A DNA stretch of 64,000 nucleotides from Prosthecobacter sp. GTDB taxonomy: Bacteria; Verrucomicrobiota; Verrucomicrobiia; Verrucomicrobiales; Verrucomicrobiaceae. The translations under genes were made by a program, and so were the position numbers. Positions 11,542 to 30,533 of this stretch are shown here, one piece after another. The stretch's first letter is position 1; every line of letters begins with the position of its first letter. The notes beneath the pieces are model-generated. The model had not been told where the DNA came from and did not search any database. It saw only the letters and a program-made list of their open reading frames with translations. The stretch spans positions 55,514-119,513 of the forward strand of contig JABARQ010000018.1 in assembly GCA_019186985.1 (NCBI GenBank). The letters are read 5' to 3'.

Positions 11542-14500
11542 ATGAGAAAGCGCCTGATCCTTGTCGCGTGTGCCGTGACCTTTGCCGCCCTGTGGTTGAA
11601 CAAGCCTTCTGAAACCGCAGCTCCCCCCAGGGGCGCAGGGCCGGTGCGGAAGCCGGACAGGACGGTCCCGCTGCAGCTTCTGCCTTCCGTCCCGCAGCAG
11701 GCACCCGAAGCAGTGGCGGAGTTTCGTGAGTGGAGCGAGCGCTTTCTTTCCGCCGCAGGCGATGGCCGCAGGCCGCTGCTGGAGGAGGGGATGGAGCTGG
11801 CGAAGGAACACACGCGGGAAATCGCCCGAATGATCAAAAGCGACCCCCAGGCGGCGATCGCCCATGCCGTGCCTATGGTGATCCGGCAGGATCTTCCGCA
11901 GGAGATTGTCGCCCTTCTGGAGGAGCGGCCGCGGCTTCGGGGAGACTATCTGGTGTCTGCGATGCTGCCGCTGGACGGCCAGGAGGGGAAGGTGAGCCCC
12001 TATGCCCGCAAGGTGATGAGCAAGGACGGGCGGACCTGGAATGCGCATGTGTATGGCAGGCGGTCCTGGCAGAGGACGATGACGAACATCTCGATCAACG
12101 GCGTGGCGGTGGAGGAGGACATGGCGGTTTCGGATTCGCCGGTGCGAGTGCTGGAGGCGGGGGAGCGACCGGTTCCGGGTGAGCGTGAGGTGGTGGAAGT
12201 GTGTCCGGTGTCGGGCGACAAAACGGAGGTGGAGAAGACGGAGACGGGCGGGCTGCCTCCGGTGTCGGAGGAGACCCCTGCCTACGAGACGCCGGAACAG
12301 GTGGTTTACATCTGCCGCGGCGGTCACATCAGCGAGGTGGTGGACCAGGCCCTTGCGAGCGAGGAGGAGGCTTACTGGAAGTCGCAGGGCGTGCGTGTCA
12401 ACGCAGGCACGGGAAGCGGTGCGCCGCATGGTCCGGTGGGCAGCATCCCCGGCGGCTGGGCGACGGGCAACCGCACCTTTCTCTACATGCGCTGCACCTT
12501 TCCGGACAGCCCCGTGGATCCGCAGAACGAGCAGGAGTGCCACGACATGCTCAAGGCCGCAAACGACTACATCGTGCGGACGAGCTACGGGCGCTGCTAC
12601 CTGACGTATGCCGTGCCTCCGCTGATCGTGCTGCCCTATCCGATGGCCTGGTACAACCGTTATGACCAGGAGGATGGATCGGGCGACTTCCTCATTCAGA
12701 GCCATGCGCGGCAGATCGCCCGTTCGATGGGCTATGACTACCTCTCCTACAACCTGGATGCCGTGCGCTGGAGCGGCGGGCCGGGCAGCTACGGCGGCGC
12801 GGCCTACGTCGGCGCCCGCGGCATGTGGATGAAGACCAGCAGCGTCGGCACCTTCCTGCATGAGCTGGGCCACAACCTGGGCCTCTGGCACGCCAACTTC
12901 TGGCGCACGACGCCGCCGAGCGTGACGGGTCCCGGGTTCAACCTGGAGTATGGCAACATCTTCGACCTGATGGGCAGCAGCGGCAGCGTGGGCCCCTACA
13001 CGGCGAGCACCAGGGGCCTGCTGTCCTGGATGCCGCAGGAACAGTTTTGGAATGTGACGACCAGCGGGACCTACCGGATTCATCAGACGGATGCGGAGAC
13101 CGCCGACCCGTCGTTCCGCTACGCCCTGCGGGTGCAGCGGGATGCGGAACGGGAGTACTGGGCGGAGTTCCGTCAGACGCATGCGACAAACCCCGGGCTG
13201 ATGAACGGCCTGATGCTGACCTGGGACCGCTGGGGCCTGAGCGGCATTGGCGGCAGCGGCGGCTCGCCCAACAACGGCAGCAACGGAGGCGCCCATCTCC
13301 TGGACATGACCCCGGGCTCGTTCGGCAACGGCATCAGCGACACGCGCAATGACTCGGCCCTCTGGATCGGCCGCACCTACAGCGACCCTGATTCCAACAT
13401 CCACATCACACCGCTGGTGAAGAACACGTCCACGACGCCGCCTTCGGTCGACGTCCAGGTCCAGATCGGCGATGTTCCTGGCAACAACGCGCCGACCCTT
13501 TCACTGTCCGCGAGCAGTACGACGGCCGCGACCGGGGCAGGCATCACGCTGACGGCCACGGCCGCCGACCCGGACGGCGACACGCTGGCCTACGCGTGGG
13601 TTTTCGGCGACGGCAGCTATTCGACTGACAACAGCGCGGTGCAGAGCAAGTCCTGGAGCAGCACCGGCCACTACCGGGTGCTTTGCACGGCCAGCGACAT
13701 GAAGGGCAGGCGCATCACGAGGGGCCTGACCATCACGGTCGGCTCACCGAGCACCTTCACGGTGGCCGGCACGGTGACGGGGCCTTCAGGCCAGCCGCTG
13801 GAGGGGGTTTATGTGGCGAGCCACGCCCCGTCCAACAACACGAGCCACCCGAGCAGCAGCAGCTTCCGGGGTGCGTGGACGGACAGTGATGGCAACTACC
13901 TCATCGCAGGGCTGGGCGCCGGAACCTATGACATCACCCCCAACCTCTACCCCTATGTGTTCAGCCCGGCGGGCAGTTCGGTGACCGTGGGGCCGAGCGC
14001 CACAGGGAGAAACTTCGCCAGCACCTCGCTGCCGACCCTCACGATCAGCTATCCGGACGCGACGGCGAACGAGGGGACGACACCCGGCACCGCCGTGGTC
14101 CGCCTGACCAGGACCGGCAGCATCAGCGCCGCGCTCTCCGTGCAGATCTTCAATGCCAACACAGGCACGGCGACCCGGAACACGGACTACGCCCTCAGCC
14201 CTTCGCCCACGAACATGGGCACGGCCTCCGAATACGTCATCCCAGCCGGCGCAGCCTTCCTGGACATCACGCTGACGCCGATCAATGACTCCACGGCCGA
14301 AGGGGTGGAATATGCGGCGCTGGACTTTGTGAACACGACGGCAGGTTATGTGATGGCCGGCACGGCAAGGGCCTGGGTGCCGATCCTGGACGATGAAAGC
14401 AGCCTGCCGGTGGTGCGGCTGACTCCGGTGGATGACGTGGGCCATGAAGCAGGCACGGACACGCTGACCTTCAAGCTGGAGCGGAACGGACCGACGACAG

Positions 14501-17500
14501 CCGCCCTGAATGTGAGCCTGACGTATTCAGGCACGGCGCTCAGGGACGCCGACTACACGGCGGCCACGACCGCGACGATTCCCGCCGGCAGCGCCACGGC
14601 GACGTTCACCGTCACGCCGCTGGATGATGCGCTGATCGAGACCACGGAGACCATCGTGGCGACGCTGGCCTCCAATGCGGCCTATCTTCGCGATGGCACG
14701 GCGCAAAGCGTCACGGCGATCCTCAATGACAACGACATGCCGGTGGTGGAGATCGCCACCACGGATGCCACCGCCAGTGAAACGGGGCCGGACCAGGGCA
14801 TGTTCACCATCACCCGGACAGGTCCCCTGGAGGCGCCGCTGACCGTGGATTATGCCGTCGGGGGCCGTGCCGTGCTGGGCACGGACTACCGCAGGCTGGA
14901 CGGGCGCGCCGTGATTCCCGAGGGAAGCAGCATGATCACCGTGGAGATTGTCCCCTTTGACGACACCCTCAGCGAGGGCGTGCAGGATGTGGTGCTGAGC
15001 CTGCGGACTTCGCAGAACTACGTGATTGGGAGCAGCTCCAGCGGCACGGTGACGATTGCGGACAATGACACGCCCCAGGTTTATGTGGAGTTGAACGCAG
15101 CCACGGGTGTCGAGCCAGCCAGCGGCTCCTCGACCGGGCCGGTGTTCCAGGTTTCGAGACCCGCCTCCGGGACGGCGTTGACGGTGAACTACAGCGTGTC
15201 CGGCACGGCGACATCGGGGTCGGACTTCACGGCGCTGTCGGGCTCCATCACCTTTGCCGCATCAGACACCAGCAGGACCATCTCCGTGCAGATGCTGTCG
15301 GACAGCCTGGCTGAAAATGCGGAAAGCGTGACGCTGACGCTGCTGCCTGGCACCGGATACTCGCTCATGCCCGGCCAGAACAACAGCATGACCGGCTGGA
15401 TTTTTGACCAGGGGCTTCCACACGTCGACGTGAACGTGGCGGACACCACCAGCACGCTGACCACCCAGATGGTGGAGTCTTCGGGCACCGGGGCGGACTT
15501 TCTGATTTCCCGCCGCACCAGCACCAGTTCGCCCCTGTCGGTGGTGTATACCATGAGCGGAACAGCCACCAGCGGCGCGGACTACAGCGCCCTCAGCGGC
15601 ACGGCCACCATTCCCGCCGGCTCATCCAGCGTGAGGGTCACCGTGGTTCCCATCAACGACCTGGTTCCTGAGGGGGTTGAGACCATCATCATGACCGTGA
15701 CGCCCGTGCCCGGCTCCTATGGAGTGCGCTTTGCCAGCGCCACGATGAACCTTGGCGACAATGACGCCTTTGCGAGCGGCACCATTGGCTTTGCCGCCGG
15801 CGCCAGCAGCGCCTTTGAAGATGCGGGGACGGTGAACATTCCGGTCAGCATCGCGGGAACACCACCCGCCGGGTCGAGCGTCCTTTACCGGGTGAACGGA
15901 GGCACGGCGGTGGGCAACGGCGTCGATTTCACGCTGGAAGCCGGAACCCTGGTCTTTGCCCCGGGAGAAACCACCAAGAACATCGCCGTGACCATCCGTC
16001 ATGACCTCCTGCCGGAACCTGCCGAGACCTTGGTGATCAACCTGTTCAATGCCGCCGGGGCCAACCTGGGCACCAGCACCCACACGCTGACCCTCAACAA
16101 CGTGTCCATGCCCGAGGCCTTCAGCGATCCGGCCACCGCCGTCACTTCCAGCAGCATGGTGTTCCAGGGGCGTGTGATGCCGGGCGGGCTGGCGACCACC
16201 TACTGGTTTGAGTATGGCGGGACGACTTCCTACGGTCAGACAACCCCTGTGCAGAACCTGCCCGCCGGAGCCGCTCCGGCACCGGTCAGCGCGGCGGTGT
16301 CCGGGCTGACGCTGACCGCCTATCATTATCGTCTGGTGGCTCAGAACAGCCTGGGCATCAGCCGCGGCATTGACCAGTTTCCCGGGGTGATCAGCACGCC
16401 GCCGGTCATCATCACCCATCCTCAGAACACGGTGGTGGACATCGGTGAGATGGCGGAGATGAGCATCCTGGCCAGCGGCGGCGGCCTCAGCTATCAGTGG
16501 CAGAAGGATTCCGGCGGCGGCATGGAGGACATTGAGGATGCCACGGAAAGCATCCTGGTTTTTCCCGCCGCCACCCTTTCGGACGCCGCCTCCTACCGGT
16601 GCATCGTCACCAACACGGATGGCACGGTCACGAGCGGGTCGGCGATGCTGACGGTGGTGACGCCGCCCGTCGTCACCCTCGATCCGGTCTCGCAGACGGC
16701 GGAGGACGGGGACTCGGTGACCTTCACCGTGGCGGCGAGCGGCCTTTTCCTGAACTACCAATGGCAGAAGAACGGCGAAGACTTGAACGGTCAGACCGGA
16801 GCGACGCTCACCCTGACCTCCGTCACAACGCTGGATGATGGGTCCTACCGTTGTGTGGTGAGCAACACGGCGGGTTCCGACACTTCAGCCCCGGCCACCC
16901 TGATGGTGGACGGCGCGCCAGGAATCGTCACACACCCGCAGAACATTGCGGTGAACCTTGGGGCGATGGCCACCTTCAGCCTGACGGCCTCCGGCCCGGG
17001 CCTGAGTTATCAATGGCAGCGGAACACCGGCACGGGCATGTTGGATGTTCCGGGGGCGAACGAAATCAGCTATGTCATCGCCTCGGCAGCGGACTCCGAT
17101 GTCGGCTCCTACCGTTGCAAGGTGACGAACGTGCATGGCTCGGTGTTTACCAACCCGGGCACGCTGACCGTCGTCAGCCCCCCGGTCCTGGTTTCACCGC
17201 TGGCTGCGGCGTCGGTGGCGGTCAATGAAGGCCAGACCTTCACCACTTCCGTGAACGTGCAGGGCCTCTTTCTGACTTATCAATGGCGCAGGGATGGGCT
17301 CAACATTCCCGATGCAACCAGCCCGACGCTGTCGATTCCCAACCTGACCGAGGCGTTCAACGGGGACTACACCTGCCGTGCAGCCAACGCCGCCGGAGAG
17401 GTGGTGACACCTGCGGTGACGCTGCTGGTGGTCACGCCCCCCGTCATGGTGGACCACCCCACGGACATCCTTGTGAACCAGGGTGATCCGGCCACGCTCA

Positions 17501-20337
17501 GCGTGACCGTCTCGGGTCCGCTCCTGACCTATCAGTGGTGGCATAACGGGCTGCCCGTGAGCGGCGCCACCGGCAGCAGCTACACGATTCCGTCCATGTC
17601 CCTGACCACCCTGGGAAGGTATTACTGCCGTGTCAGCAACAGCGCAGGAACGGTGACCTCACGGTTTGCCCTGGCGGGGATCATCGGCATGCCGATCATC
17701 ACGCAGCCGCCCTACCCGGTACTGGCGGAGGCCGGATCGCCGGTGCGGATGGAGATCGTGGCCGATGGTTCGGACCTGTCCTATGCATGGAAGCTGAACG
17801 GCAAGCCCGCCGGCACGGGGCCCATGCTTACCGTCTGGCCCTACACCACAAAGAACAGCGGGGTTTACGTGGCCGAGGTGAAGAACAGCCTGCGCACAAC
17901 GACCAGCAGTCCCACGGAGATCAAGACAGTGACGGACATAAATCCCGCGCTGGACCTGGCGCCTCTGAAATGGAGCACCTCCGGCCCCGCCTTCTGGCGG
18001 CCGACGGGAGCCGCCCTTTCGAAGGATGGCAAGGATGCGATGATGATCGGCAACATCAGCGACGGCTTTTTCTCCCGGCTCACGACGCGGCTTGCCGGAC
18101 CTGTGGTGCTGCGCTGGTGGCAGAAGATCTCCACCCAGGCAGGACAGGACTTTCTCACGGTGAAGCTGGACGGGGTCGAGGTCGGCCGTGCCAGTGGTGA
18201 GCTGGACTGGCAGCAGAACTCACTGACCCTCGGCGCCGGCACCCATGAACTGGAGTTTGCCTATGTGAAGGATGCCTCGGGCAAGGCGGGTTCGGACTCC
18301 GTGTGGCTCGACCTGTTCACCCAGGATCCTGTTTTTGAAATCCCGGACCTGGCCTCCAGAAGGCTGCTGCCGTCGGGATCCGGCGTCACGCTGACCGTCT
18401 CCCACACCGGCGTCGCAGCCCCCGACGGCTATCAGTGGCGCCTGAACGGCAAGGCCATCAAGGGCGCCATAGGATCGCAGCTGGTGCTCAGCAACCTGCA
18501 GGGATCCCAGGCAGGCACCTATGACTGTGTCCTCTCATCCACGGTCAACGGCATGACCCTGAGCCGCACCGGCCCCCCTCATGTGATCGCCCTCGTGGAC
18601 GTCCGGGACAGCACCTCCGTCGTCCAGGCGCCAGGCAAGGCGACCTTCAAGGTCATCGCCTACGGCCAGAACCTGCGCTACCAGTGGCGCAAGGGCACCA
18701 CCGAGATGACCAGTGAGAAAAAACAGGCCCTGGAACTCAGCTTCCTCCAGTATTTCAACTCCGGCGACTACATCTGCGATGTCCTGGACGTCGACGACAA
18801 CAAGGTGGCCGCAGGCACGAATGTCCTGAAGGTTTATGACAAGGGGCCTCGCATCACGCACACCGGCGACCTCGATCCCGCCATCATCAGCGGCCCTTAT
18901 TCGTTCCAGGTCGCCTACGATCCGGATGTCCGCCGGGCACCTGTCAGCTTCAAGGCCGCCGGACTGCCCAAGGGCCTGGTCATTCACAAGACCACCGGTG
19001 AAATCTCCGGCGTGCCCGATGTCTGGAGCACCACCCCCTTCAAGGTGGTGATCACCGCCACCAATGGCATCGAGTCCCATTCCGTGGAGACACGCATTTT
19101 TGTGCGCAGCCTGGAGGGCAAGAACGGGACTTTCACGGGCTTGATCCCACGTCATCCAAATCTCAACCAGGGCCTCGGAGGCCGGATTGATCTCGTTGTC
19201 TCAAGCACGGGCACGCACTCAGGAACACTGGTCCTCGGTGGCGTCAAATACTCGTTCAAAGACAGGATCCGGACAGCCCTGACGCCCGTGACCTTTGATG
19301 TCGAGCCCGAGGCTGATTCGGATTTCAGCATCGCCCGGGGCAAGGAAACACCCCTGCGGCTCAGCATCACGGTGAATGATGCGGGCGGCCTGACCGGGGA
19401 GGTGAAGCTGGGTGGCGACTCCCAGGCATTCACAGGCTGGAGGGCTTCCTGGAGCAAGGCGCAGCCCGCCGACTCCCTGGCAGGCACGGGCAGCCCGGTG
19501 GGATTGTATAACTTCGAACTCGACCTGCCTCCGGCGCATGATGGCGAGGCCAACGTGCCCCAGGGCTCTGGCTTCGGCAGCTTCACGCTCGACCGCAACA
19601 CCGGCGCAGCGGTCATCGTCGGCAAGCTGGCCGACAACGCCTCCTTCACGTCCTCCACGCTGGCCGGAGCCCAGGGTCAGCTGCTGCTTTACTCCACCCT
19701 GTACACCATCGCCATACCGGGCTCGCTGGCGGGGGTGCTCGACATCCAGGAGGCCGTTCCGGCAGATGACAACGGCCTGGCCGGTCCTGTGACCTGGTGG
19801 CGTCCCTCCTTTGCCACGGCGGCCAAGGAACGCCTGTATCCCACCGGCTTCACCAACCTCGTCACCTTGCAGGTCGATGGCGGTCGCTACACCGCCCCGG
19901 CATCCGGCAGCCTGCCGCTGGGGCTGCCGGCGATCAATTCCGACAAGGTCAGCCTGACCTTCCTCGGCGGCGGCATCGGCAGTCCTCCACCTGCGCCCGA
20001 CCTGGCCAGGATGACGCTTCTGACCAGCGGGAAAACCTCGGCGGTGGGAGCAAACCCACGAAACACCAGCCTGACGATCATTCCTGGAAAAGGAACTTTC
20101 ACCGGCAGCTTCACGCTTGAAGACCTGGACCCTCTGGATCTGCGCCCGCCTGACAAGGCGGCGAAGCTCAAGCGACCCGTCAACTGGCAGGGCCTGCTCA
20201 TCCGCCATTCCGTCGATGGCTGGAAAGGCAGCGGCTTCTTCATCCTTCCAGAACTGCCGGATGCTGCCGGTGAAAAGCTGACCACGACACCTGTTCACTC
20301 CGGTGAAGTGAAGCTGCTTCCCCTGCTTCCCGAATAA
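11542..20337 (+). CDS. Giant secreted metzincin (gametolysin/M11-like) with PKD, Calx-beta and Ig-like repeats
   Basis: 2931 aa with an N-terminal signal sequence (MRKRLILVACAVTFAALW). HELGHNLGLWH at residues 440-450 is the metzincin zinc site HExxHxxGxxH. Met477 in FDLMGS is the Met-turn, and the spacing and EYGNIFDLMG context resemble M11 gametolysin. Next come a PKD-like domain (about 649-733), a carboxypeptidase-regulatory-like domain (738-826), six Calx-beta domains (about 830-1520), an FN3-like segment, at least six Ig-like domains (about 1617-2130), a LamG-like segment (about 2140-2265), more Ig-like domains, a putative-Ig (He_PIG) module, and a C-terminal module (about 2535-2931) also found in the protein at 56364. 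It is probably a surface or secreted protease/adhesin; the substrate is unknown. Confidence 0.88.
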   Translation: MRKRLILVACAVTFAALWLNKPSETAAPPRGAGPVRKPDRTVPLQLLPSVPQQAPEAVAEFREWSERFLSAAGDGRRPLLEEGMELAKEHTREIARMIKSDPQAAIAHAVPMVIRQDLPQEIVALLEERPRLRGDYLVSAMLPLDGQEGKVSPYARKVMSKDGRTWNAHVYGRRSWQRTMTNISINGVAVEEDMAVSDSPVRVLEAGERPVPGEREVVEVCPVSGDKTEVEKTETGGLPPVSEETPAYETPEQVVYICRGGHISEVVDQALASEEEAYWKSQGVRVNAGTGSGAPHGPVGSIPGGWATGNRTFLYMRCTFPDSPVDPQNEQECHDMLKAANDYIVRTSYGRCYLTYAVPPLIVLPYPMAWYNRYDQEDGSGDFLIQSHARQIARSMGYDYLSYNLDAVRWSGGPGSYGGAAYVGARGMWMKTSSVGTFLHELGHNLGLWHANFWRTTPPSVTGPGFNLEYGNIFDLMGSSGSVGPYTASTRGLLSWMPQEQFWNVTTSGTYRIHQTDAETADPSFRYALRVQRDAEREYWAEFRQTHATNPGLMNGLMLTWDRWGLSGIGGSGGSPNNGSNGGAHLLDMTPGSFGNGISDTRNDSALWIGRTYSDPDSNIHITPLVKNTSTTPPSVDVQVQIGDVPGNNAPTLSLSASSTTAATGAGITLTATAADPDGDTLAYAWVFGDGSYSTDNSAVQSKSWSSTGHYRVLCTASDMKGRRITRGLTITVGSPSTFTVAGTVTGPSGQPLEGVYVASHAPSNNTSHPSSSSFRGAWTDSDGNYLIAGLGAGTYDITPNLYPYVFSPAGSSVTVGPSATGRNFASTSLPTLTISYPDATANEGTTPGTAVVRLTRTGSISAALSVQIFNANTGTATRNTDYALSPSPTNMGTASEYVIPAGAAFLDITLTPINDSTAEGVEYAALDFVNTTAGYVMAGTARAWVPILDDESSLPVVRLTPVDDVGHEAGTDTLTFKLERNGPTTAALNVSLTYSGTALRDADYTAATTATIPAGSATATFTVTPLDDALIETTETIVATLASNAAYLRDGTAQSVTAILNDNDMPVVEIATTDATASETGPDQGMFTITRTGPLEAPLTVDYAVGGRAVLGTDYRRLDGRAVIPEGSSMITVEIVPFDDTLSEGVQDVVLSLRTSQNYVIGSSSSGTVTIADNDTPQVYVELNAATGVEPASGSSTGPVFQVSRPASGTALTVNYSVSGTATSGSDFTALSGSITFAASDTSRTISVQMLSDSLAENAESVTLTLLPGTGYSLMPGQNNSMTGWIFDQGLPHVDVNVADTTSTLTTQMVESSGTGADFLISRRTSTSSPLSVVYTMSGTATSGADYSALSGTATIPAGSSSVRVTVVPINDLVPEGVETIIMTVTPVPGSYGVRFASATMNLGDNDAFASGTIGFAAGASSAFEDAGTVNIPVSIAGTPPAGSSVLYRVNGGTAVGNGVDFTLEAGTLVFAPGETTKNIAVTIRHDLLPEPAETLVINLFNAAGANLGTSTHTLTLNNVSMPEAFSDPATAVTSSSMVFQGRVMPGGLATTYWFEYGGTTSYGQTTPVQNLPAGAAPAPVSAAVSGLTLTAYHYRLVAQNSLGISRGIDQFPGVISTPPVIITHPQNTVVDIGEMAEMSILASGGGLSYQWQKDSGGGMEDIEDATESILVFPAATLSDAASYRCIVTNTDGTVTSGSAMLTVVTPPVVTLDPVSQTAEDGDSVTFTVAASGLFLNYQWQKNGEDLNGQTGATLTLTSVTTLDDGSYRCVVSNTAGSDTSAPATLMVDGAPGIVTHPQNIAVNLGAMATFSLTASGPGLSYQWQRNTGTGMLDVPGANEISYVIASAADSDVGSYRCKVTNVHGSVFTNPGTLTVVSPPVLVSPLAAASVAVNEGQTFTTSVNVQGLFLTYQWRRDGLNIPDATSPTLSIPNLTEAFNGDYTCRAANAAGEVVTPAVTLLVVTPPVMVDHPTDILVNQGDPATLSVTVSGPLLTYQWWHNGLPVSGATGSSYTIPSMSLTTLGRYYCRVSNSAGTVTSRFALAGIIGMPIITQPPYPVLAEAGSPVRMEIVADGSDLSYAWKLNGKPAGTGPMLTVWPYTTKNSGVYVAEVKNSLRTTTSSPTEIKTVTDINPALDLAPLKWSTSGPAFWRPTGAALSKDGKDAMMIGNISDGFFSRLTTRLAGPVVLRWWQKISTQAGQDFLTVKLDGVEVGRASGELDWQQNSLTLGAGTHELEFAYVKDASGKAGSDSVWLDLFTQDPVFEIPDLASRRLLPSGSGVTLTVSHTGVAAPDGYQWRLNGKAIKGAIGSQLVLSNLQGSQAGTYDCVLSSTVNGMTLSRTGPPHVIALVDVRDSTSVVQAPGKATFKVIAYGQNLRYQWRKGTTEMTSEKKQALELSFLQYFNSGDYICDVLDVDDNKVAAGTNVLKVYDKGPRITHTGDLDPAIISGPYSFQVAYDPDVRRAPVSFKAAGLPKGLVIHKTTGEISGVPDVWSTTPFKVVITATNGIESHSVETRIFVRSLEGKNGTFTGLIPRHPNLNQGLGGRIDLVVSSTGTHSGTLVLGGVKYSFKDRIRTALTPVTFDVEPEADSDFSIARGKETPLRLSITVNDAGGLTGEVKLGGDSQAFTGWRASWSKAQPADSLAGTGSPVGLYNFELDLPPAHDGEANVPQGSGFGSFTLDRNTGAAVIVGKLADNASFTSSTLAGAQGQLLLYSTLYTIAIPGSLAGVLDIQEAVPADDNGLAGPVTWWRPSFATAAKERLYPTGFTNLVTLQVDGGRYTAPASGSLPLGLPAINSDKVSLTFLGGGIGSPPPAPDLARMTLLTSGKTSAVGANPRNTSLTIIPGKGTFTGSFTLEDLDPLDLRPPDKAAKLKRPVNWQGLLIRHSVDGWKGSGFFILPELPDAAGEKLTTTPVHSGEVKLLPLLPE

Positions 20338-20392: not shown

Positions 20393-20983
20393 TCAATCCA
20401 GCTTGGCTTTCACCAGCGTCTCCAGGCGGTTCACACCGCGGCGGATCCTCGCCTTCACGGTGCCCAGCGGTTCACGCAGACGCTCGGCCACCTCCGCCTG
20501 GGTCAGCCCGCTGAAATAGGCCAGTTCTATGGCCTCGCGCTGATCAGGGTTCAGCTTGGAAACCGCACGCATCAGGATGCTGTCACGCTCCTTGCTGACC
20601 ATCAGCTCATGGCCGGATTCCTCGAACTCGGGCTGCACGCTTTTGTTCTCACGCTCAAAATCATCATTCAGGCGAGAACGACGCTGCTTGGCGCGGATCC
20701 GGTCGATCGCTCGGTTGCGTGCCATGGTGGTCAGCCAGGTCAGCGGCTTGCCCTTCTTCGGTTCATATAGATGGGCCTTGTTCCAAAGCTGGACGAGAAC
20801 TTCCTGCATCACGTCCTCGGTGTCGTGATGGTCATTCAGGACATTGGCCACCGAGGCAAAGATAAGGCCGGAGTATTTTTGATAAAACGCCCGGTAAGCC
20901 TGGGAATCACGTTCTGCGATGCGCTGGATCAAACCGATGTCTTCCTGCACTTGAGCGTCGTTGAGGGATTCTGCGTCTGTCAT
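20393..20983 (-). CDS. ECF-type RNA polymerase sigma factor (SigK-like)
   Basis: 196 aa from the ATG at 20983 (MTDAESLNDAQ). An upstream in-frame start at 21010 would place one copy of the upstream 9-mer repeat inside the coding region, so I prefer the later one. Region 2 is at about residues 20-90 (FYQKYSGLIFASVANVLNDHHDTEDVMQEVLVQLW, LTWLTTMARNRAIDRIR) and region 4 at about 130-185 (LNPDQREAIELAYFSGLTQAEVAERLREPLGTVKARIRRG). No anti-sigma gene is adjacent in this window. The upstream region holds a remarkable palindrome and repeated half-sites (see 21003-21114), suggesting dedicated regulation. The glutaminase fusion gene is divergent from it. Confidence 0.92.
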   Translation of the reverse strand: MTDAESLNDAQVQEDIGLIQRIAERDSQAYRAFYQKYSGLIFASVANVLNDHHDTEDVMQEVLVQLWNKAHLYEPKKGKPLTWLTTMARNRAIDRIRAKQRRSRLNDDFERENKSVQPEFEESGHELMVSKERDSILMRAVSKLNPDQREAIELAYFSGLTQAEVAERLREPLGTVKARIRRGVNRLETLVKAKLD

Positions 20984-21002: not shown

Positions 21003-21114
21003 TTCGACAAAACTACCGACGAACTGCGACATAGTTGGGTGGAAAGGGTTCATTTGTCAAAGTTTTTGTCGAAACATTTCCAAACTTTGTCGAATTTATT
21101 TCGACAAAGTTTGG
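21003..21114. promoter_or_regulatory. Operator-like region: four copies of TTCGACAAA including a 15-bp perfect palindrome
   Basis: The 9-mer TTCGACAAA occurs at 21003-21011 and 21100-21108, and its reverse complement TTTGTCGAA at 21065-21073 and 21086-21094. The last two facing copies form a perfect 15-bp inverted repeat, CCAAACTTTGTCGAA (21080-21094) and TTCGACAAAGTTTGG (21100-21114), with the spacer TTTAT. The array lies between the divergent sigma factor gene and the glutaminase fusion gene, in an AT-rich stretch. It looks like a multi-site binding region for a dimeric regulator or a DNA hairpin. The regulator is unknown. Confidence 0.75.
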
Positions 21115-21216
21115 CCGAATAGCTTCCGCTCCACTGGAGTAGCTCTCAAAGTTCGTTGCTTATGCGGAATCGAAAAAAAGAAGGTTCCCGGCACCTTCCC
21201 TGCTTTGGCTTTAGCG

Positions 21217-23037
21217 ATGCTCTCTCCCATCCAAGAGTACCTTGAGAAGCTTCATGCCCGTTATGCACCCGTCATGGACGGCCAGGTGGCGGATTATATC
21301 CCCGAGCTTTCCAAGGCCGACCCACGCTGGTTCGGCATCTGCATCGCCACCCGGGACGGGCATGTCTATGAAGTCGGTGACACCCGCCAGCCTTTTACCA
21401 TCCAGTCGATCTCCAAGGCCCTGGCCTATGGCCTGGCCCTGGAGGACCGGGGCGAGGAACATGTGCTCTCGCGCATTGGCGTCGAGCCCTCCGGCGAAGC
21501 CTTCAATGCGATCAGCCTGAAGGAGGGCACGGGGACGCCGTTCAACCCGATGATCAATGCCGGCGCCATCGCAACCTGCGGACAGGTTCTGGAAAAGGAG
21601 GGACGGCCCCGGTTTGAGCGCCTGCTGGCCTATCTGAGCAGCTTTGCCGGACGGGATCTGGATGTCGATGAGGTGGTTTACCGCAGCGAGAGCGAGACAG
21701 GCCATCGCAACCGGGCGATCGGCTGGCTGCTGAGAAACTTCGGCATCGTCGATGAAGATCCGCATGAGACCCTGGAGACCTACTTTCAACAGTGCTCCAT
21801 CCGCGTCACCTGCCGGGATCTGGCGCTGATGGGGGCGACACTGGCCAACCAGGGCGTTCAGCCCCTGACGCGCAAACGTGCCATCGCCTCCCAGTATGTG
21901 GACAATGTCCTCGCCGTGATGGCGACCTGCGGCATGTATGACTGGTCAGGCGAGTGGATTTATCGCGTGGGACTTCCGGCGAAGAGCGGCGTGGGCGGCG
22001 GCATCCTGGCCGTGCTCCCTGGGCAGCTTGGCATCGGCGTGTTTTCCCCGCCCCTGGATGAGCAGGGCAACAGCCTGCGCGGCATCAAGGTCTGCATGGA
22101 CCTGTCACGCGAGCTGTCGCTGCACATGCTGAACCCGACGGCCACACCACGCACGGCGATCCGGCTCTCCTATCACAGCGGCGAAGTCACCGCCCGGCGT
22201 CGCCTGCCTGCATCGGCAAGGGAGACGCTGAAGACCCACGGGGCGAGGATCCAGGTCCTGGAGCTTCAGGGCGGGCTGATTTTCACGACCTTTGAGCCGG
22301 TGCTGCGGCATGCCATCCAGCTGGCGAACGCCGGATGCAGCCATCTCATCTTTGACCTGCGTGCCGTGGTGACCGCCAACACCGTCAGCCTGCGGCTGAT
22401 GGCGGACCTGCGCCGCCGCCTCGCCGGCGTGGGCGTGCAGGTCGTCTTCTGCCAGCCTGGCGGCCTGACGCAACGCCTCCAGGACTCCGGCATCCCGCCG
22501 GGTTTCATATTCTCCACGGTGGACGCCGCCCTGGAAAGCTGTGAAGACGCCCTGCTGATGACGGTGACAGGAGCCACCTGGCGGGTGACCCGGGCCCTGG
22601 CCCTGCAGGAGTGTCCCGTGTTTCAAACCTGCACGGAGGGTGAGATCCGTGTGCTGGAACGTGAGCTTCCATGCCGGACCTTCCAGCCTGGGGAAACGCT
22701 GATCAAGGCGGGGGAAAGTTCAGACGAGATGTTTGTGCTGCTGGAGGGCAACGTGGAGGTGCAGATCCTTGAGGAAGGCGCGCTGCGCCGTCGTGTCGAT
22801 GTCCTGACCGCCGGCATGACCGCCGGCGAAATGGCCTTCCTGGACGGCTCGCCGCGCTCGGCCGATGTCGTGGCGATGGACAAGGTGCAGTGCGTGGTGG
22901 TGACACGCTCCTGGTTTGCGGCCCTGTCCGACGCCCTGCCGCACCTGAAGATCAAGCTGCTGCAGGCGTTGCTGAGGGAGATCTCCGCCCGTCTGCGCCA
23001 GGCAAACGTGGAGATCAGCGCCCTTCAGCGTGCCTGA
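21217..23037 (+). CDS. glsA: Glutaminase fused to STAS and cyclic-nucleotide-binding domains
   Basis: 606 aa from the ATG at 21217. A TTG 12 bases earlier is possible but less likely. The N-terminal ~310 residues are a serine-dependent glutaminase (L-glutamine to L-glutamate plus ammonia). The catalytic S64-I-S-K67 sits in FTIQSISKALAYG, followed by GTPFNPMINAGAI and AKSGVGGGILAVLPGQLGIGV. A STAS-like domain follows (about 330-430, LIFDLRAVVTANTVSLRLMADLRRRL), then a cNMP-binding domain (about 450-590, RTFQPGETLIKAGESSDEMFVLLEG, GEMAFLDGSPRSADVVA). Glutaminase-STAS-cNMP fusions exist in other bacteria and suggest allosteric control by a nucleotide or protein partner. The gene is divergent from the sigma factor gene across the palindromic region. 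Confidence 0.92.
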   Translation: MLSPIQEYLEKLHARYAPVMDGQVADYIPELSKADPRWFGICIATRDGHVYEVGDTRQPFTIQSISKALAYGLALEDRGEEHVLSRIGVEPSGEAFNAISLKEGTGTPFNPMINAGAIATCGQVLEKEGRPRFERLLAYLSSFAGRDLDVDEVVYRSESETGHRNRAIGWLLRNFGIVDEDPHETLETYFQQCSIRVTCRDLALMGATLANQGVQPLTRKRAIASQYVDNVLAVMATCGMYDWSGEWIYRVGLPAKSGVGGGILAVLPGQLGIGVFSPPLDEQGNSLRGIKVCMDLSRELSLHMLNPTATPRTAIRLSYHSGEVTARRRLPASARETLKTHGARIQVLELQGGLIFTTFEPVLRHAIQLANAGCSHLIFDLRAVVTANTVSLRLMADLRRRLAGVGVQVVFCQPGGLTQRLQDSGIPPGFIFSTVDAALESCEDALLMTVTGATWRVTRALALQECPVFQTCTEGEIRVLERELPCRTFQPGETLIKAGESSDEMFVLLEGNVEVQILEEGALRRRVDVLTAGMTAGEMAFLDGSPRSADVVAMDKVQCVVVTRSWFAALSDALPHLKIKLLQALLREISARLRQANVEISALQRA

Positions 23038-25988: not shown

Positions 25989-26099
25989 GAGGCCCGCCTC
26001 CAGCCCGCCGGGATCCACGAACAGGGATCCTTCCACGCGTCACGCATGACCATGCCGTGAAACCGCGCCTTCAACCCCATGCCTAACCTTTTCCATATC

Positions 26100-27350
26100 A
26101 TGAAACCCCTCCCCGCCCTTTTCACCGCCGCCCTCCTCCTTTCCCCCTGCCTTCAGGCATCCGCCGATCCGTTCACCGTCCAGTCCCTCGTTCAGAAGGC
26201 CCTCGGCACCCATCCCGAACTCCGCTACTACGAGGCCCGCGTCGAGGCCGCGAAAGGCGGAAGGGTGAAGGCCGGCGAAATCAAGAACCCCGACCTCATG
26301 ACCGGCGTCGGCAACTGGCGCGTGCGCGACCTCGAAACCAACGGCCTCAGCGACGGCCCCACCTGGGCCGTGCAGCTCACCCAGACCTTTGAATGGCCCG
26401 GCCGCCTCTCCCTGCGCAAGGCCATCGCCCAGAAGGACATCGAGCTTGCCGAACTCGGCCTCGAACAGTTCCGCGCCGCACTCGCCGCCCGCGTCAGAAA
26501 CCTCTCCTGGAAGATCCTCGCCGCCCAGGAGGAAACCCGCGCTGCGGAGGAGGTCTCGGCCCGCTACAAGGCCCTCGCCGACGTGCTCCTGCAGCGCGAC
26601 CCCGCCGGCGTCGCTCCGAAGCTGGAGGCGCGGATCGTCCAGGCCAATGCGCTCAACCTTGGCGCCGCCGCCACCGCAGCACGCAACGAACTCGCCTCCG
26701 CCCGCTTCGAACTGAACCAGCTTCTTGGCGAAAAGCCCGGCCAGCCCCTGGAGATCAGGATCGAGAAGCTCACGCTCAGCCCGCCGCCGCCGCTGGAGGC
26801 CCTGCTGGCGGAGGCGCGGAGAAAAAACTTCGACCTGCGGGCGCGCATCATCGACGTGCAGCAGCAGGGCTTTGAGGTGAAGCTCGCGGAGAACGAGCGC
26901 TGGCCCTCGATCAGCGTGGTGCCCTACATCCAGCGGCAGCAGAACGCCACACGCGAAACCCAGGTCGGCATCGGCGTCTCCATCCCCCTGCCCCTCTGGA
27001 ACCGAAACAAGGGTGCCATCGACACCGCCAAAGCCCGCGAGGTGCAGGCCGACGTGATGCTCACCGCCCAGATGCGCCAGCTCGAGCGCGATGTCGCCGC
27101 GCAGGCCAGCCATTACCAGATCCATGTCGAGGAGCTCGCCAGGTGGCCGGCGGACACGCTGGAAAGCTTCCGCGCCGCCGCCGCCGAAGCGGATGAGCAC
27201 TTCCGCCTCGGCGCACTGCCGCTCTCCACCTACACCGAGCTGCAGCAGCAATACCTCGACAGCGTGAAGGCCGTGCTCACCTCCCAGCTCGCCGCCGTCG
27301 AGGCCAGGCTGGAGCTCGAGCAGCTCACCGGGACGAAGCTGGACAAGTAA
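26100..27350 (+). CDS. TolC-family outer membrane efflux protein (CusC/CzcC type)
   Basis: 416 aa from the ATG at 26100, whose signal peptide MKPLPALFTAALLLSPCLQASA is clean. The ATG at 26079 would add 7 residues before it. Two OEP-type repeats of long amphipathic helices are visible (HPELRYYEARVEAAKGG, VQLTQTFEWPGRLSLRKAIA, and a second repeat around 280-400), matching the CzcC/CusC branch of TolC-like channels. It forms the outer membrane duct of a tripartite metal efflux system. It lies 39 bases upstream of the RND pump gene. The membrane-fusion (adaptor) protein normally found with this pair is missing from this locus. Confidence 0.9.
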   Translation: MKPLPALFTAALLLSPCLQASADPFTVQSLVQKALGTHPELRYYEARVEAAKGGRVKAGEIKNPDLMTGVGNWRVRDLETNGLSDGPTWAVQLTQTFEWPGRLSLRKAIAQKDIELAELGLEQFRAALAARVRNLSWKILAAQEETRAAEEVSARYKALADVLLQRDPAGVAPKLEARIVQANALNLGAAATAARNELASARFELNQLLGEKPGQPLEIRIEKLTLSPPPPLEALLAEARRKNFDLRARIIDVQQQGFEVKLAENERWPSISVVPYIQRQQNATRETQVGIGVSIPLPLWNRNKGAIDTAKAREVQADVMLTAQMRQLERDVAAQASHYQIHVEELARWPADTLESFRAAAAEADEHFRLGALPLSTYTELQQQYLDSVKAVLTSQLAAVEARLELEQLTGTKLDK

Positions 27351-27389
27351 ACCCCAACCACATCCGCGTCCCCGCCACGCTCCGCGCCC

Positions 27390-30300
27390 ATGCTTTCCCA
27401 CCTTCTTGAGTTTGCCCTCCGGCAGAGGACCGTCGTGCTGCTCGCCACGCTCGGCCTGCTCGCCGCCGGCATCTTGGCCCTGCTGCACCTGCCCATCGAC
27501 GCCGTGCCTGATCTCACCGGCCCCCAGGTGCAGGTGAACGTCAACGTGCCCGCCCTCGCCCCCGAGGAGTCCGAACGCGCCGTCACCCGGCCCATCGAAA
27601 TGGCGCTCTCCGGCATGCCCGGCGTGCTCGACTCCCGCTCCATCACCAAGTTCGGCCTCAGCCAGGTCACCGTCGAGTTTGAGGACGGCACGGACATCTT
27701 CCGTGCCCGCCAGCTCGTCGGCGAACGCCTCACCGCCATCCTGCAGGACCTGCCGCCCGGCAGCGAGCTCAGCCTCGCCCCCATCAGCACCGGCCTCGGC
27801 GAGATCTTCTACTACACCGTGCACTGGAAAAAGGACGCCAGGGTGCGGCCCGCCGATGAGCGCGAAGGCCTGATGCGGCTGTGGGAGACTCATGAATACG
27901 TGGTGAAGCCCATGCTGCGCACCGTCCAGGGCGTCGCTGAAATCAACAGCAACGGCGGCCACCAGCGCCAGGTCACCGTCGAACCCATGCTCGACAGGCT
28001 GAAGGCGGCCAACATGACGGTCGGCGAGCTTGCGGACATCATCCGTGGCAACGTCGAAAACGCCGGCGGCGGCGTCATCAGCCGTGATGGCGAACAGCTC
28101 ACCGTGCGCAGCGTCGGCCGTGTGAGCACGGCGGAGGAGATCGCCAGCCTGCCCGTCAAGTTCGGCGCGGCCGTGCATCCGCTGAAGGTCGAGGACGTCG
28201 CCAGGGTGCAGTGGGGTGCTGGCTTTCGCGGCGGCGCGGCCACGATGGACGGAGGCGAGGTCGTGCTCGGCACCATCATGATGCTCATGGGTGAAAACGC
28301 CCGCGTCGTCTGCCAGCGCGTGAAGCCGCGCATCGACGAAATCCGTGAGAAGCTGCCGGACGGCATGGACATCACCATCGTCTACGACCGCTCCGACCTC
28401 GTGAACGCCACCGTCGGCACCGTGCAGAAGAACCTGGGTGAAGGGGCCGTCTTCATCGTGCTCGTGCTGCTTGTCCTGCTCGGCAACCTGCGTGCCGCGC
28501 TCATCGTCGCCCTGATGATCCCGCTGTCCTTCCTTTTCGCCGCCTGCGGCATGGTGCAGGGCGGCTGGTCCGCAAACCTCATGAGCCTCGGCGCCCTCGA
28601 CTTCGGCCTCATCATCGACGGAGCCATCTTCATGGTGGAGAACATCATCCGACGGCTCGGCCACCGGCAGCACCACCTCGGCCGCATCCTCACGCCCGAG
28701 GAGCGCGCCCGGGAGGTGCTCGCCGCCAGCAGGCAGATCGCCAGCCCCACCTTCTTCGGCGTGCTGATCATCACCGTCGTCTACCTGCCCATCATGACCC
28801 TCACCGGCATCGAGGGGAAGATGTTCCGCCCGATGGCCTTCACCGTCATCCTCTCACTCACCGGCGCCCTGCTGCTGGCGCTCACCCTGGTGCCTGTGCT
28901 CTGCTCCTATTTCCTCGGTGGCAGCATCAATGAAAAGGAGAACTTCATGATCGCCTGGCTGAACAGGCTCGTTCAGCCGCTGCTGCGCCTTGTGCTCAGG
29001 CTGCGCTGGATCGTGGCCCTGCTCGCCATCGGCTTCTTCGCCTTCTGCGGCCATCGCTTCACCACGCTGGGCTCGGAGTTCGTGCCGAAGCTCGATGAGG
29101 GCTCCATGTCCGGCATGGTCTATCGAAAGGTGGGGATGAACCTGCACGAGTCCCTGCTCCAGGATCTCGAGCTCGGCAAAATGGTGCGCGAGAAGTTTCC
29201 CATGACCACCCGCATCTTCACCCGCATCGGCACCAGCGAGGTGGCCACCGACCCCATGCCGCCGAACGAGACGGACTTTTACATCTTCTACAAGCCGCTC
29301 GCGGAATGGCCGTCAGGGCCCGGAATGCCCACGACCAAGCAGGAGCTCATGGCCGCCATCGAAAAGGAGATCCTCGCCAGGCATCCCGGCCAGACCGTGG
29401 AGTTCGGCCAGCCGATCGAAACACGCTTCAACGAGATGATGGAGGGCACCAAGGCCGAGCTCGCCGTGCGCATCTACGGCGTCGAGTTTGACATGCTCGA
29501 CAGGCTGGCCGGGCAGGTTCGCGACATCATCAACGGCATCCCAGGCGGCGATGCGGAGCTGGAAACCGCCGGCCGGCCGGGCACCGTCGTGCTCCAGGTG
29601 AAGCGTGATGTGCTCACCAAGTACAACGTCCCGCTCGCCGAGACCAACCGCGCCGTCTCCGCAGGACTCGGAGGCGAGGTCGTCGGCCAGGTCGTCGAGG
29701 GCAACCGCAAGCGTGACATCGTCGTGCGTCTGCCCGAGGACGAGCGCTCCAAGGACGAGGTCATCCGCAGCCTGCCCCTGCGTGTCGGCGACCACGGCAT
29801 GATCCCCCTCGGTGATGCCGTGGACATCCGGGTTGAGAAGTCCGTCGACCCCATCCGCCACAGCCGCACCCAGCGCCGCGTGGCCCTGCTCGTCAGCGTC
29901 GGCGAAGGCCGGGACATGGAGGGCTTCGTCCATGAAGCCACCGCGAAGATCAAGAAGCAGGTCGAGTTCCCCGAAGGCTACGACTTCGAGTTCGGCGGCA
30001 CCTTTGAAAACCTTCAGGAGGCCCGCTCACGCCTCGCCATCGTCGTGCCCACCACGCTGCTGCTCATCCTGATGCTGATCTTCTTCAACTTCGGCAGCCT
30101 GCGCCAGACCCTGCTCGTCGCCACGGGCATCCCCCTGGCCCTCACCGGCGGCATCATCGCCCTCGACCTGCGGGACATGCCCTTCAGCATCACCGCCGCC
30201 GTCGGCTTCATCGCCCTCAGCGGTGTCGCCGTGCTCAACGGCCTCGTGCTCGTGAACTACTTCAACGAACTGCGCGAGGAGGAGGGCCTCAGCGTCCGCG

Positions 30301-30533
30301 AGGCCGTCCTCAAGGGCGTCGCCACCCGGCTGCGCGCCGTCATCATGACCGCCCTCGTCGCAGCGCTCGGCTTTGTGCCCATGGCCCTCGCCCATGGCGC
30401 CGGCGCCGAAGTACAGCGCCCGCTGGCCACGGTGGTCATCGGCGGCATCATCAGCTCCACCCTTCTGACCCTGCTCCTGCTGCCCATGCTTTACGACTGG
30501 GTCGAACGGCGTGCACAGGTCCGGGCGTCGTAA
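27390..30533 (+). CDS. CusA/CzcA-family heavy-metal efflux RND transporter
   Basis: 1047 aa, normal for HME-RND pumps. It starts with a transmembrane helix and HLPIDAVPDLTGPQVQVNV, the hallmark of CzcA/CusA. The DFGLIIDGAIFMVENIIRR segment in TM4 carries the proton-relay aspartates, and large periplasmic loops and a 12-TM layout are evident. It uses the proton gradient to expel cations such as Cu(I), Ag(I), Zn, Co or Cd. The substrate cannot be decided by eye. It follows the TolC-like gene by 39 bases. The periplasmic adaptor (CusB/CzcB) is not found upstream or downstream in this window, so it must be elsewhere or replaced. Confidence 0.93.
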   Translation: MLSHLLEFALRQRTVVLLATLGLLAAGILALLHLPIDAVPDLTGPQVQVNVNVPALAPEESERAVTRPIEMALSGMPGVLDSRSITKFGLSQVTVEFEDGTDIFRARQLVGERLTAILQDLPPGSELSLAPISTGLGEIFYYTVHWKKDARVRPADEREGLMRLWETHEYVVKPMLRTVQGVAEINSNGGHQRQVTVEPMLDRLKAANMTVGELADIIRGNVENAGGGVISRDGEQLTVRSVGRVSTAEEIASLPVKFGAAVHPLKVEDVARVQWGAGFRGGAATMDGGEVVLGTIMMLMGENARVVCQRVKPRIDEIREKLPDGMDITIVYDRSDLVNATVGTVQKNLGEGAVFIVLVLLVLLGNLRAALIVALMIPLSFLFAACGMVQGGWSANLMSLGALDFGLIIDGAIFMVENIIRRLGHRQHHLGRILTPEERAREVLAASRQIASPTFFGVLIITVVYLPIMTLTGIEGKMFRPMAFTVILSLTGALLLALTLVPVLCSYFLGGSINEKENFMIAWLNRLVQPLLRLVLRLRWIVALLAIGFFAFCGHRFTTLGSEFVPKLDEGSMSGMVYRKVGMNLHESLLQDLELGKMVREKFPMTTRIFTRIGTSEVATDPMPPNETDFYIFYKPLAEWPSGPGMPTTKQELMAAIEKEILARHPGQTVEFGQPIETRFNEMMEGTKAELAVRIYGVEFDMLDRLAGQVRDIINGIPGGDAELETAGRPGTVVLQVKRDVLTKYNVPLAETNRAVSAGLGGEVVGQVVEGNRKRDIVVRLPEDERSKDEVIRSLPLRVGDHGMIPLGDAVDIRVEKSVDPIRHSRTQRRVALLVSVGEGRDMEGFVHEATAKIKKQVEFPEGYDFEFGGTFENLQEARSRLAIVVPTTLLLILMLIFFNFGSLRQTLLVATGIPLALTGGIIALDLRDMPFSITAAVGFIALSGVAVLNGLVLVNYFNELREEEGLSVREAVLKGVATRLRAVIMTALVAALGFVPMALAHGAGAEVQRPLATVVIGGIISSTLLTLLLLPMLYDWVERRAQVRAS

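Follow-up and report, generated by a model that had tools for sequence, protein, structure and literature searches.

The repeat cluster upstream of the sigma factor gene

The locus lies in a 64-kb window, which is the whole stretch of DNA analysed here. An orphan ECF sigma factor gene with an ATG start is located on the reverse strand (20393-20983) and encodes a protein of 196 amino acids. It is the gene we propose to be regulated. The protein scores over the cut-off with both the Sigma70_r2 and r4_2 Pfam models and with the NCBIfam sigma70-ECF superfamily model; the SigK model gives the top score, yet under its own cut-off. The divergent gene on the forward strand (21205-23037) encodes a glutaminase-STAS-cNMP-binding protein according to the domain search. 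Elsewhere in the window, a 2931-amino acid open reading frame (11542-20337) looks by eye like a secreted protein of repetitive make-up, its repeats being Calx-beta-like and Ig-like, and the stretch 26079-30533 appears, again by eye, to hold a gene for a TolC-like outer-membrane protein and, after it, one for a CusA/CzcA-like efflux pump.

The 9-mer TTCGACAAA is found four times in the window, with all copies within 21003-21108. Two of them are direct repeats on the reverse strand, which is the sigma strand. Direct repeat 1 (21086-21094), with the core TCGACA matching TnnACA, also lies within the left arm of a palindrome, and the next copy (21065-21073) follows 21 bp beyond it. The other two copies are on the forward strand, one directly upstream of the sigma start codon (21003-21011) and one facing direct repeat 1 (21100-21108). 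The latter completes a perfect inverted repeat (21080-21114) with arms at 21080-21094 and 21100-21114 and a 5-nt loop. The initial annotation had reported the four copies and this 15+5+15 arrangement at exactly these positions. Its judgement that the cluster is beyond chance is borne out by shuffling, with a mean of 0.31 copies and four copies in none of 100 shuffles.

A further direct repeat on the sigma strand, TTTGACAAA (21053-21061), is positioned 12 bp beyond the 21065-21073 copy and has its TnnACA core at 21060-21055. The hexamer TTGACA inside it (21055-21060, reverse strand) is the putative -35 element of a predicted sigma promoter, for which AACTAT (21031-21036, reverse strand) is a weak putative -10 element, found by eye, with an 18-bp spacer. 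Between 20960 and 21215 the sigma strand carries TnnACA only at 21093, 21072 and 21060, the last being TTGACA, and the opposite strand carries it twice, at 21004 and 21101. The array on the sigma strand reads TCGACA, a degenerate slot, TCGACA (21 bp) and TTGACA (12 bp). Between the putative promoter and the sigma start codon there is a second, opposed repeat set on the forward strand, two of whose three members are degenerate. Beyond the 21003-21011 copy it comprises ACCGACGAA (21015-21023, 12 bp past that copy, GAC at 21018) and TGCGACATA (21025-21033, 10 bp past ACCGACGAA, GAC at 21028), both weak and recognised by eye.

A genome-wide motif search finds such a cluster at the sigma gene and, by listed coordinates, no second one anywhere in the same assembly. 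TTMGACAAA (M is A or C) matches 56 times in the whole assembly versus 35 times for the reversed-pattern control. The 52 sites outside the window's cluster comprise 47 within a long open reading frame and five outside, by a rough test.

Conservation of the array in the genus

The host belongs to a large genus of Verrucomicrobiaceae, and named relatives of the sigma gene are found mainly in Verrucomicrobiaceae, Prosthecobacter and Brevifollis records. Of the 47 other genomes in the genus, 38 have an orthologue, with 73-89% identity. We pooled 94 sigma loci (30, 24 and the first 40 of 57 in one listing) and removed 18 with less than 60% identity as well as 31 duplicates, which left 45 distinct upstream regions. 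TTMGACAA is found on either strand in 41 of these 45 regions, with 78 sites in total against 1.2 expected (sd 1.0, 200 shuffles). The sigma direction is shared by 67 of the 78 sites, and 61 of them lie 75-125 bp before the aligned start. The exact motif is absent in four of the 45 regions (L002, L089, L093 and L136), of which the first three have near-matches by eye.

The sites are regularly spaced. With a relaxed core (GACAAA, AACAAA or GACGAA) the spacings cluster at 11, 21-22, 31-33 and 42-44 bp, from which the sites are predicted to lie on one helical face. When only TTMGACAA is counted, the most frequent spacings are 22 bp (nine pairs), 31 bp (five pairs), 21 and 20 bp (four pairs each) and 9 bp (three pairs). 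TnnACA pairs over the 45 regions peak at 11-12, 20-23, 31-32 and 42 bp, and 196 pairs are found within 70 bp versus 13 in shuffles. Their periodicity score is 0.50, where shuffles average 0.00 (sd 0.18), and 0.51 in the 32 dissimilar regions alone; the highest of 100 shuffles reached 0.54, above the observed score, with the shuffles holding about 13 pairs versus 196. In 22 of the 45 regions one common pattern runs from an ACAAA-TTTGAC element to a downstream GTCKC element, over 31-32 bp in 19 regions and 42-44 bp in three.

The tandem pattern TTMGACAAA-N9-17-TTMGACAAA occurs once each in 16 of the 48 genus genomes and never in the reversed-pattern controls. Comparison of coordinates places all 16 occurrences just upstream of the sigma gene. 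A search for a wider regulon, allowing up to two mismatches at a fixed 22-bp spacing, gave 44 matches in the 48 genomes versus 30 for reversed-pattern controls. Of these matches 25 are at the sigma gene, one is at carH (G007) and 18 are elsewhere; with 30 matches in the controls, the 18 give no sign of additional targets.

The initial annotation had made its reading depend on the palindrome being kept in close relatives. The facing pair TTTGTCKAA-N0-12-TTMGACAAA is found in one of the 48 genus genomes, that of the window itself, and we dropped the palindrome as the functional unit. Likewise, the glutaminase gene is beside the sigma gene in one of 76 close-orthologue loci (45 distinct, tblastn), again only in the window, and the sigma-flanking genes vary between genomes (19 loci read). 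Since the facing pair is not conserved and the neighbours differ, the unit is the repeat array of the sigma gene rather than a shared divergent operator. The genomes share a phased direct-repeat array at the sigma gene, not a palindrome. Judged from these sequence comparisons, the repeats are very probably the operator of the ECF sigma gene, and the glutaminase gene is probably a bystander outside the system. An operator of both divergent genes, as initially proposed, is thus upheld on the sigma side, where 41 of 45 upstream regions have sites, and not on the glutaminase side.

MerR-type neighbours in families f3 and f4

A sister family, here called f3, and a further family, f4, were compared. 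The f3 sigma factors have about 50% identity and often have a MerR-type gene alongside, which tblastn detected in the fetched flanks of 22 of 32 loci (some flanks are shortened by contig ends). At least two TMGACA/TGTCKA sites within 220 bp are present in 18 of the 22 loci with a MerR neighbour, the other four having one site, and in none of the ten loci without (Fisher p 1.6e-5). The association of the sites with MerR neighbours is strong but not perfect. In f4 a MerR neighbour is found in one of 16 loci, L029, whose regulator is the most like CarH and which has two sites; among the 15 others, L240 has three sites and no MerR gene in its flanks. The L029 sigma factor itself (G033:C88) is 40% identical, with the CarH-like MerR gene as its neighbour.

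Most f3 regulators differ from CarH in domain content. For all ten f3 MerR proteins in alignment A1, Pfam recognises the MerR domain alone and no B12 domain, and the MerR protein of L232 has both B12-binding domains, so that ten of the 11 proteins scanned are without one. The f3 MerR neighbours without a B12 domain, among them those at L210:246-1319 and L209:337-1338, share a conserved C-terminal half. Within it C292, C294, H297, C315, D322, H326 and H330 (L210 numbering) are invariant, and this half is perhaps another sensor domain.

Carotenoid genes were also seen near f3 sigma genes. In three of six f3 windows read (L312, L313 and L315) a crtI-family (phytoene) desaturase gene is at most 2 kb from the sigma gene, and these desaturases score 460, 460 and 510 bits with TIGR02734 (cut-off 238). 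At L311 and L314 the squalene/phytoene synthase genes have HpnD as their best model with scores under its cut-off and are therefore not taken as evidence for carotenoid synthesis.

A CarH-type regulator in the genus

The genome of the window encodes a CarH/LitR-type MerR protein of 312 amino acids (G000:C20:10788-11723, reverse strand), unlinked to the sigma gene. The protein carries all three CarH signature motifs, RxWERRY, Wx9EH and D/ExHx2G/P-x41-SxT/V-x22-27-GG, in the form in which the relevant part of PMC9304148 gives them. Its best solved relatives are 3whp (E 5.1e-30) and the Thermus CarH 5c8d (E 7e-30). The best NCBIfam model is the CarH equivalog NF052513 with 127.5 bits (E 5.6e-37), under the 400-bit cut-off, so we name the protein CarH-type from its motifs and not from the model.

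A profile of the ten f3 MerR proteins gave 40 matches in 38 of the 48 genus genomes, one in each except for three in G003. Thirty regulator loci were fetched from these 40. A full CarH-type protein with the three motifs is encoded at 29 of them, and the remaining one, from G003, holds a different MerR protein that is cut short. At L250 (G003:C207) there is a second, f3-like MerR gene that ends at the contig end, and G003 has another match to the same profile.

The sigma factor (at least 73% identity) and CarH tend to occur together. Both are found in 36 of the 48 genomes and neither in seven; three have the sigma gene only (G044, G046 and G051, the last being 95% complete) and two have carH only (G006 and G020, both incomplete), with a Fisher p of 5e-5. 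For the 33 genomes with at least 90% completeness and at most 5% contamination the numbers are 29 with both, one with the sigma gene only and three with neither (p 7e-4). As the genomes are related, these p values overstate independence. A recheck of 13 other genus genomes with the window's own CarH as query left the calls unchanged. When mapped on a photolyase tree for 30 genomes, absence of the sigma gene requires three changes, and G011, a genome with both genes, falls among the sigma-negatives.

The carH promoter was inspected for the same sites. Pairs of TTAGACA are found before carH in the near relatives G007 (22 bp apart) and G043 (23 bp), as expected of a self-repressing LitR. There is no TTMGACAA site in the carH promoter of the window's genome, and 25 of 30 regulator loci are without one within 160 bp.

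A candidate ECF promoter motif

Upstream of carH, 29 of the 30 regulator loci have the motif CC-N16-CGTA and 13 have the fuller TGTnnCC-N16-CGTA, with many of the spacers almost identical among closely related genomes. In three genomes the strict form TGTANCC-N16-CGTA has a single occurrence, always at carH, with one, three and one matches for the reversed-pattern controls. In the window's own genome the only occurrence is TGTATCC-N16-CGTA before carH (G000:C20:11811-11837, reverse strand). By its sequence the motif looks like an ECF promoter, and our guess is that this sigma factor would read it.

Genomes with and without the sigma gene cannot be told apart by the presence of a photolyase gene. 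Upstream of the photolyase start, a CGTA box is found in 31 of 33 sigma-positive versus none of six sigma-negative genomes (loci L280-L309 and L321-L337; G047, for which no photolyase start was obtained, was left out of the count). In about half the genomes the box is only 12-14 bp before the start codon, and in most others 29-35 bp. A stricter motif precedes the photolyase gene in three of the 33 sigma-positive genomes. We regard the box as suggestive only because a 4-mer is common by chance, most negatives come from a single clade, and the position and the three stricter matches in 33 genomes add to this; it is possibly the -10 element of the sigma factor.

Comparison with known systems and proposed mechanism

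The passages of PMC9304148 on the CarH operator describe tandem 11-bp direct repeats of the form nnnnTnnACAn, arranged in Myxococcus xanthus as DR1-dr2-DR3-DR4-dr5 with the -35 hexamer TTGACA in DR4. Set against these published descriptions, the array shares phased direct repeats with a TnnACA core with the CarH operator of M. xanthus, Thermus and Bacillus megaterium. Against the M. xanthus operator it reads as DR1-(dr2)-DR3-DR4, again with TTGACA within one repeat, here as part of a predicted promoter. Unlike in the CarH operator, a sigma gene takes the place of a crt operon as the target, a second repeat set lies in the opposed orientation, and the spacings in the window are 21 and 12 bp with a degenerate slot, phased but not in exact 11-bp tandem.

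Streptomyces coelicolor offers a parallel for the target. There, as far as the descriptions in PMC5401885 and PMC12705666 extend, the B12-dependent MerR photoreceptor LitR controls the ECF sigma gene litS and, through it, carotenoid genes, and in our proposed reading a MerR B12 photoreceptor would likewise govern an ECF sigma gene. The differences are that Streptomyces belongs to another phylum, that the regulator gene is here unlinked from the sigma gene and that the repeats here flank the putative promoter on both sides. M. xanthus, the organism of CarA/CarH, also employs an ECF sigma factor in its light response through the CarQ-CarR-CarS system. There an anti-sigma factor holds CarQ, according to the part of PMC9304148 that treats it, whereas no anti-sigma gene was noticed by eye among the open reading frames flanking this sigma gene (19 loci).

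Taken together, we consider it likely that a CarH/LitR-type B12 photoreceptor, encoded by an unlinked gene, represses the sigma gene in the dark through these repeats, in a cascade like that of LitR-LitS. The analysis directly shows a phased array that matches the published operator, a CarH-like gene that has the signature motifs, the co-occurrence of the two genes and, in f3, linkage to MerR genes. From these we infer binding, repression, the dependence on light and B12, and the sigma targets. Several results count against this reading: the site-free carH promoter of the window's genome and of most regulator loci, the NF052513 score under its cut-off, the spacing that is not strictly tandem, the f3 regulators without a B12 domain, the f3 loci with a MerR neighbour and a single site, the three sites of L240 with no MerR gene nearby, the three genomes with the sigma gene but no CarH, the shared ancestry behind the co-occurrence, the four upstream regions with no exact motif and the shuffle that exceeded the observed periodicity. 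In the dark, adenosylcobalamin-loaded CarH would bind head-to-tail on the phased TnnACA repeats, and with the putative -35 hexamer inside one bound repeat the sigma promoter would be blocked. Light would destroy the cofactor, CarH would leave and the sigma factor would be made. It would then activate light-protection genes, perhaps a carotenoid desaturase gene as in the sister taxa, the photolyase gene and, as feedback, carH.

For the order as a whole we tentatively suggest, as a possibility we lean slightly against, that the module of operator and sigma gene was kept and the sensor was exchanged, with a B12 light sensor in the genus and a MerR protein without a recognised B12 domain at most of the f3 loci, and that the sigma factor would drive the repressor gene through CC-N16-CGTA as negative feedback.

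Alternative explanations

Direct repeats spaced by about 11 or 21-22 bp are also the targets of OmpR/PhoB-type and LytTR-type response regulators. An operator of such a regulator was first considered from the spacing alone, as the array has spacings of 11 and 22 bp, and the portion of PMC5859096 on direct-repeat binders names BldC and some response regulators. We find this origin of the array unlikely, because the TnnACA core fits CarH and a MerR/CarH-like gene adjoins the sigma gene in all 18 f3 loci with at least two sites. The genes of ECF sigma factors are often autoregulated, and the sites stay with the sigma gene, as they would if the sigma factor read its own promoter through them. The sites are, however, numerous, phased and in both orientations, and the 31-32 and 42-44 bp stretches differ by about one turn. 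These properties suit an operator more than a -35/-10 pair. Moreover, in three genomes the strict candidate promoter motif has its single occurrence at carH. Autoregulation by the sigma factor, which the initial annotation had favoured, is thus very unlikely, and the sites instead match the published CarH/LitR-type operator.

An operator coordinating the sigma and glutaminase genes would explain why the 21100-21108 site is on the glutaminase side and forms a palindrome. The two genes are neighbours in a single one of the 76 loci, the facing pair is found in one of the 48 genomes, and the sites stay with the sigma gene, so that the link drawn initially between the two genes is not supported and seems slightly more doubtful still. 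Perfect 15-bp arms could also form an RNA hairpin or terminator, to which we give hardly any credence: the palindrome lies between divergent starts and not after genes, no trailing T run is seen by eye, and it is not conserved.

Implications

In our literature searches, mostly limited to papers outside subscription, no paper was found on CarH together with Verrucomicrobia or on Prosthecobacter together with an ECF sigma factor. Among the matches listed, a looser search gave none that joins CarH with Verrucomicrob-, and a search for the 9-mer gave no title on this group or on CarH. If the preferred reading of a CarH-type photoreceptor acting on the sigma gene is true, it would mean that light is sensed through B12 in Verrucomicrobia. 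It would also tie an orphan ECF sigma factor of unknown role to a signal and provide an exact, testable operator. Furthermore, f3, in which the same sites go with a MerR protein lacking the B12 domain, would be a natural case of sensor replacement.
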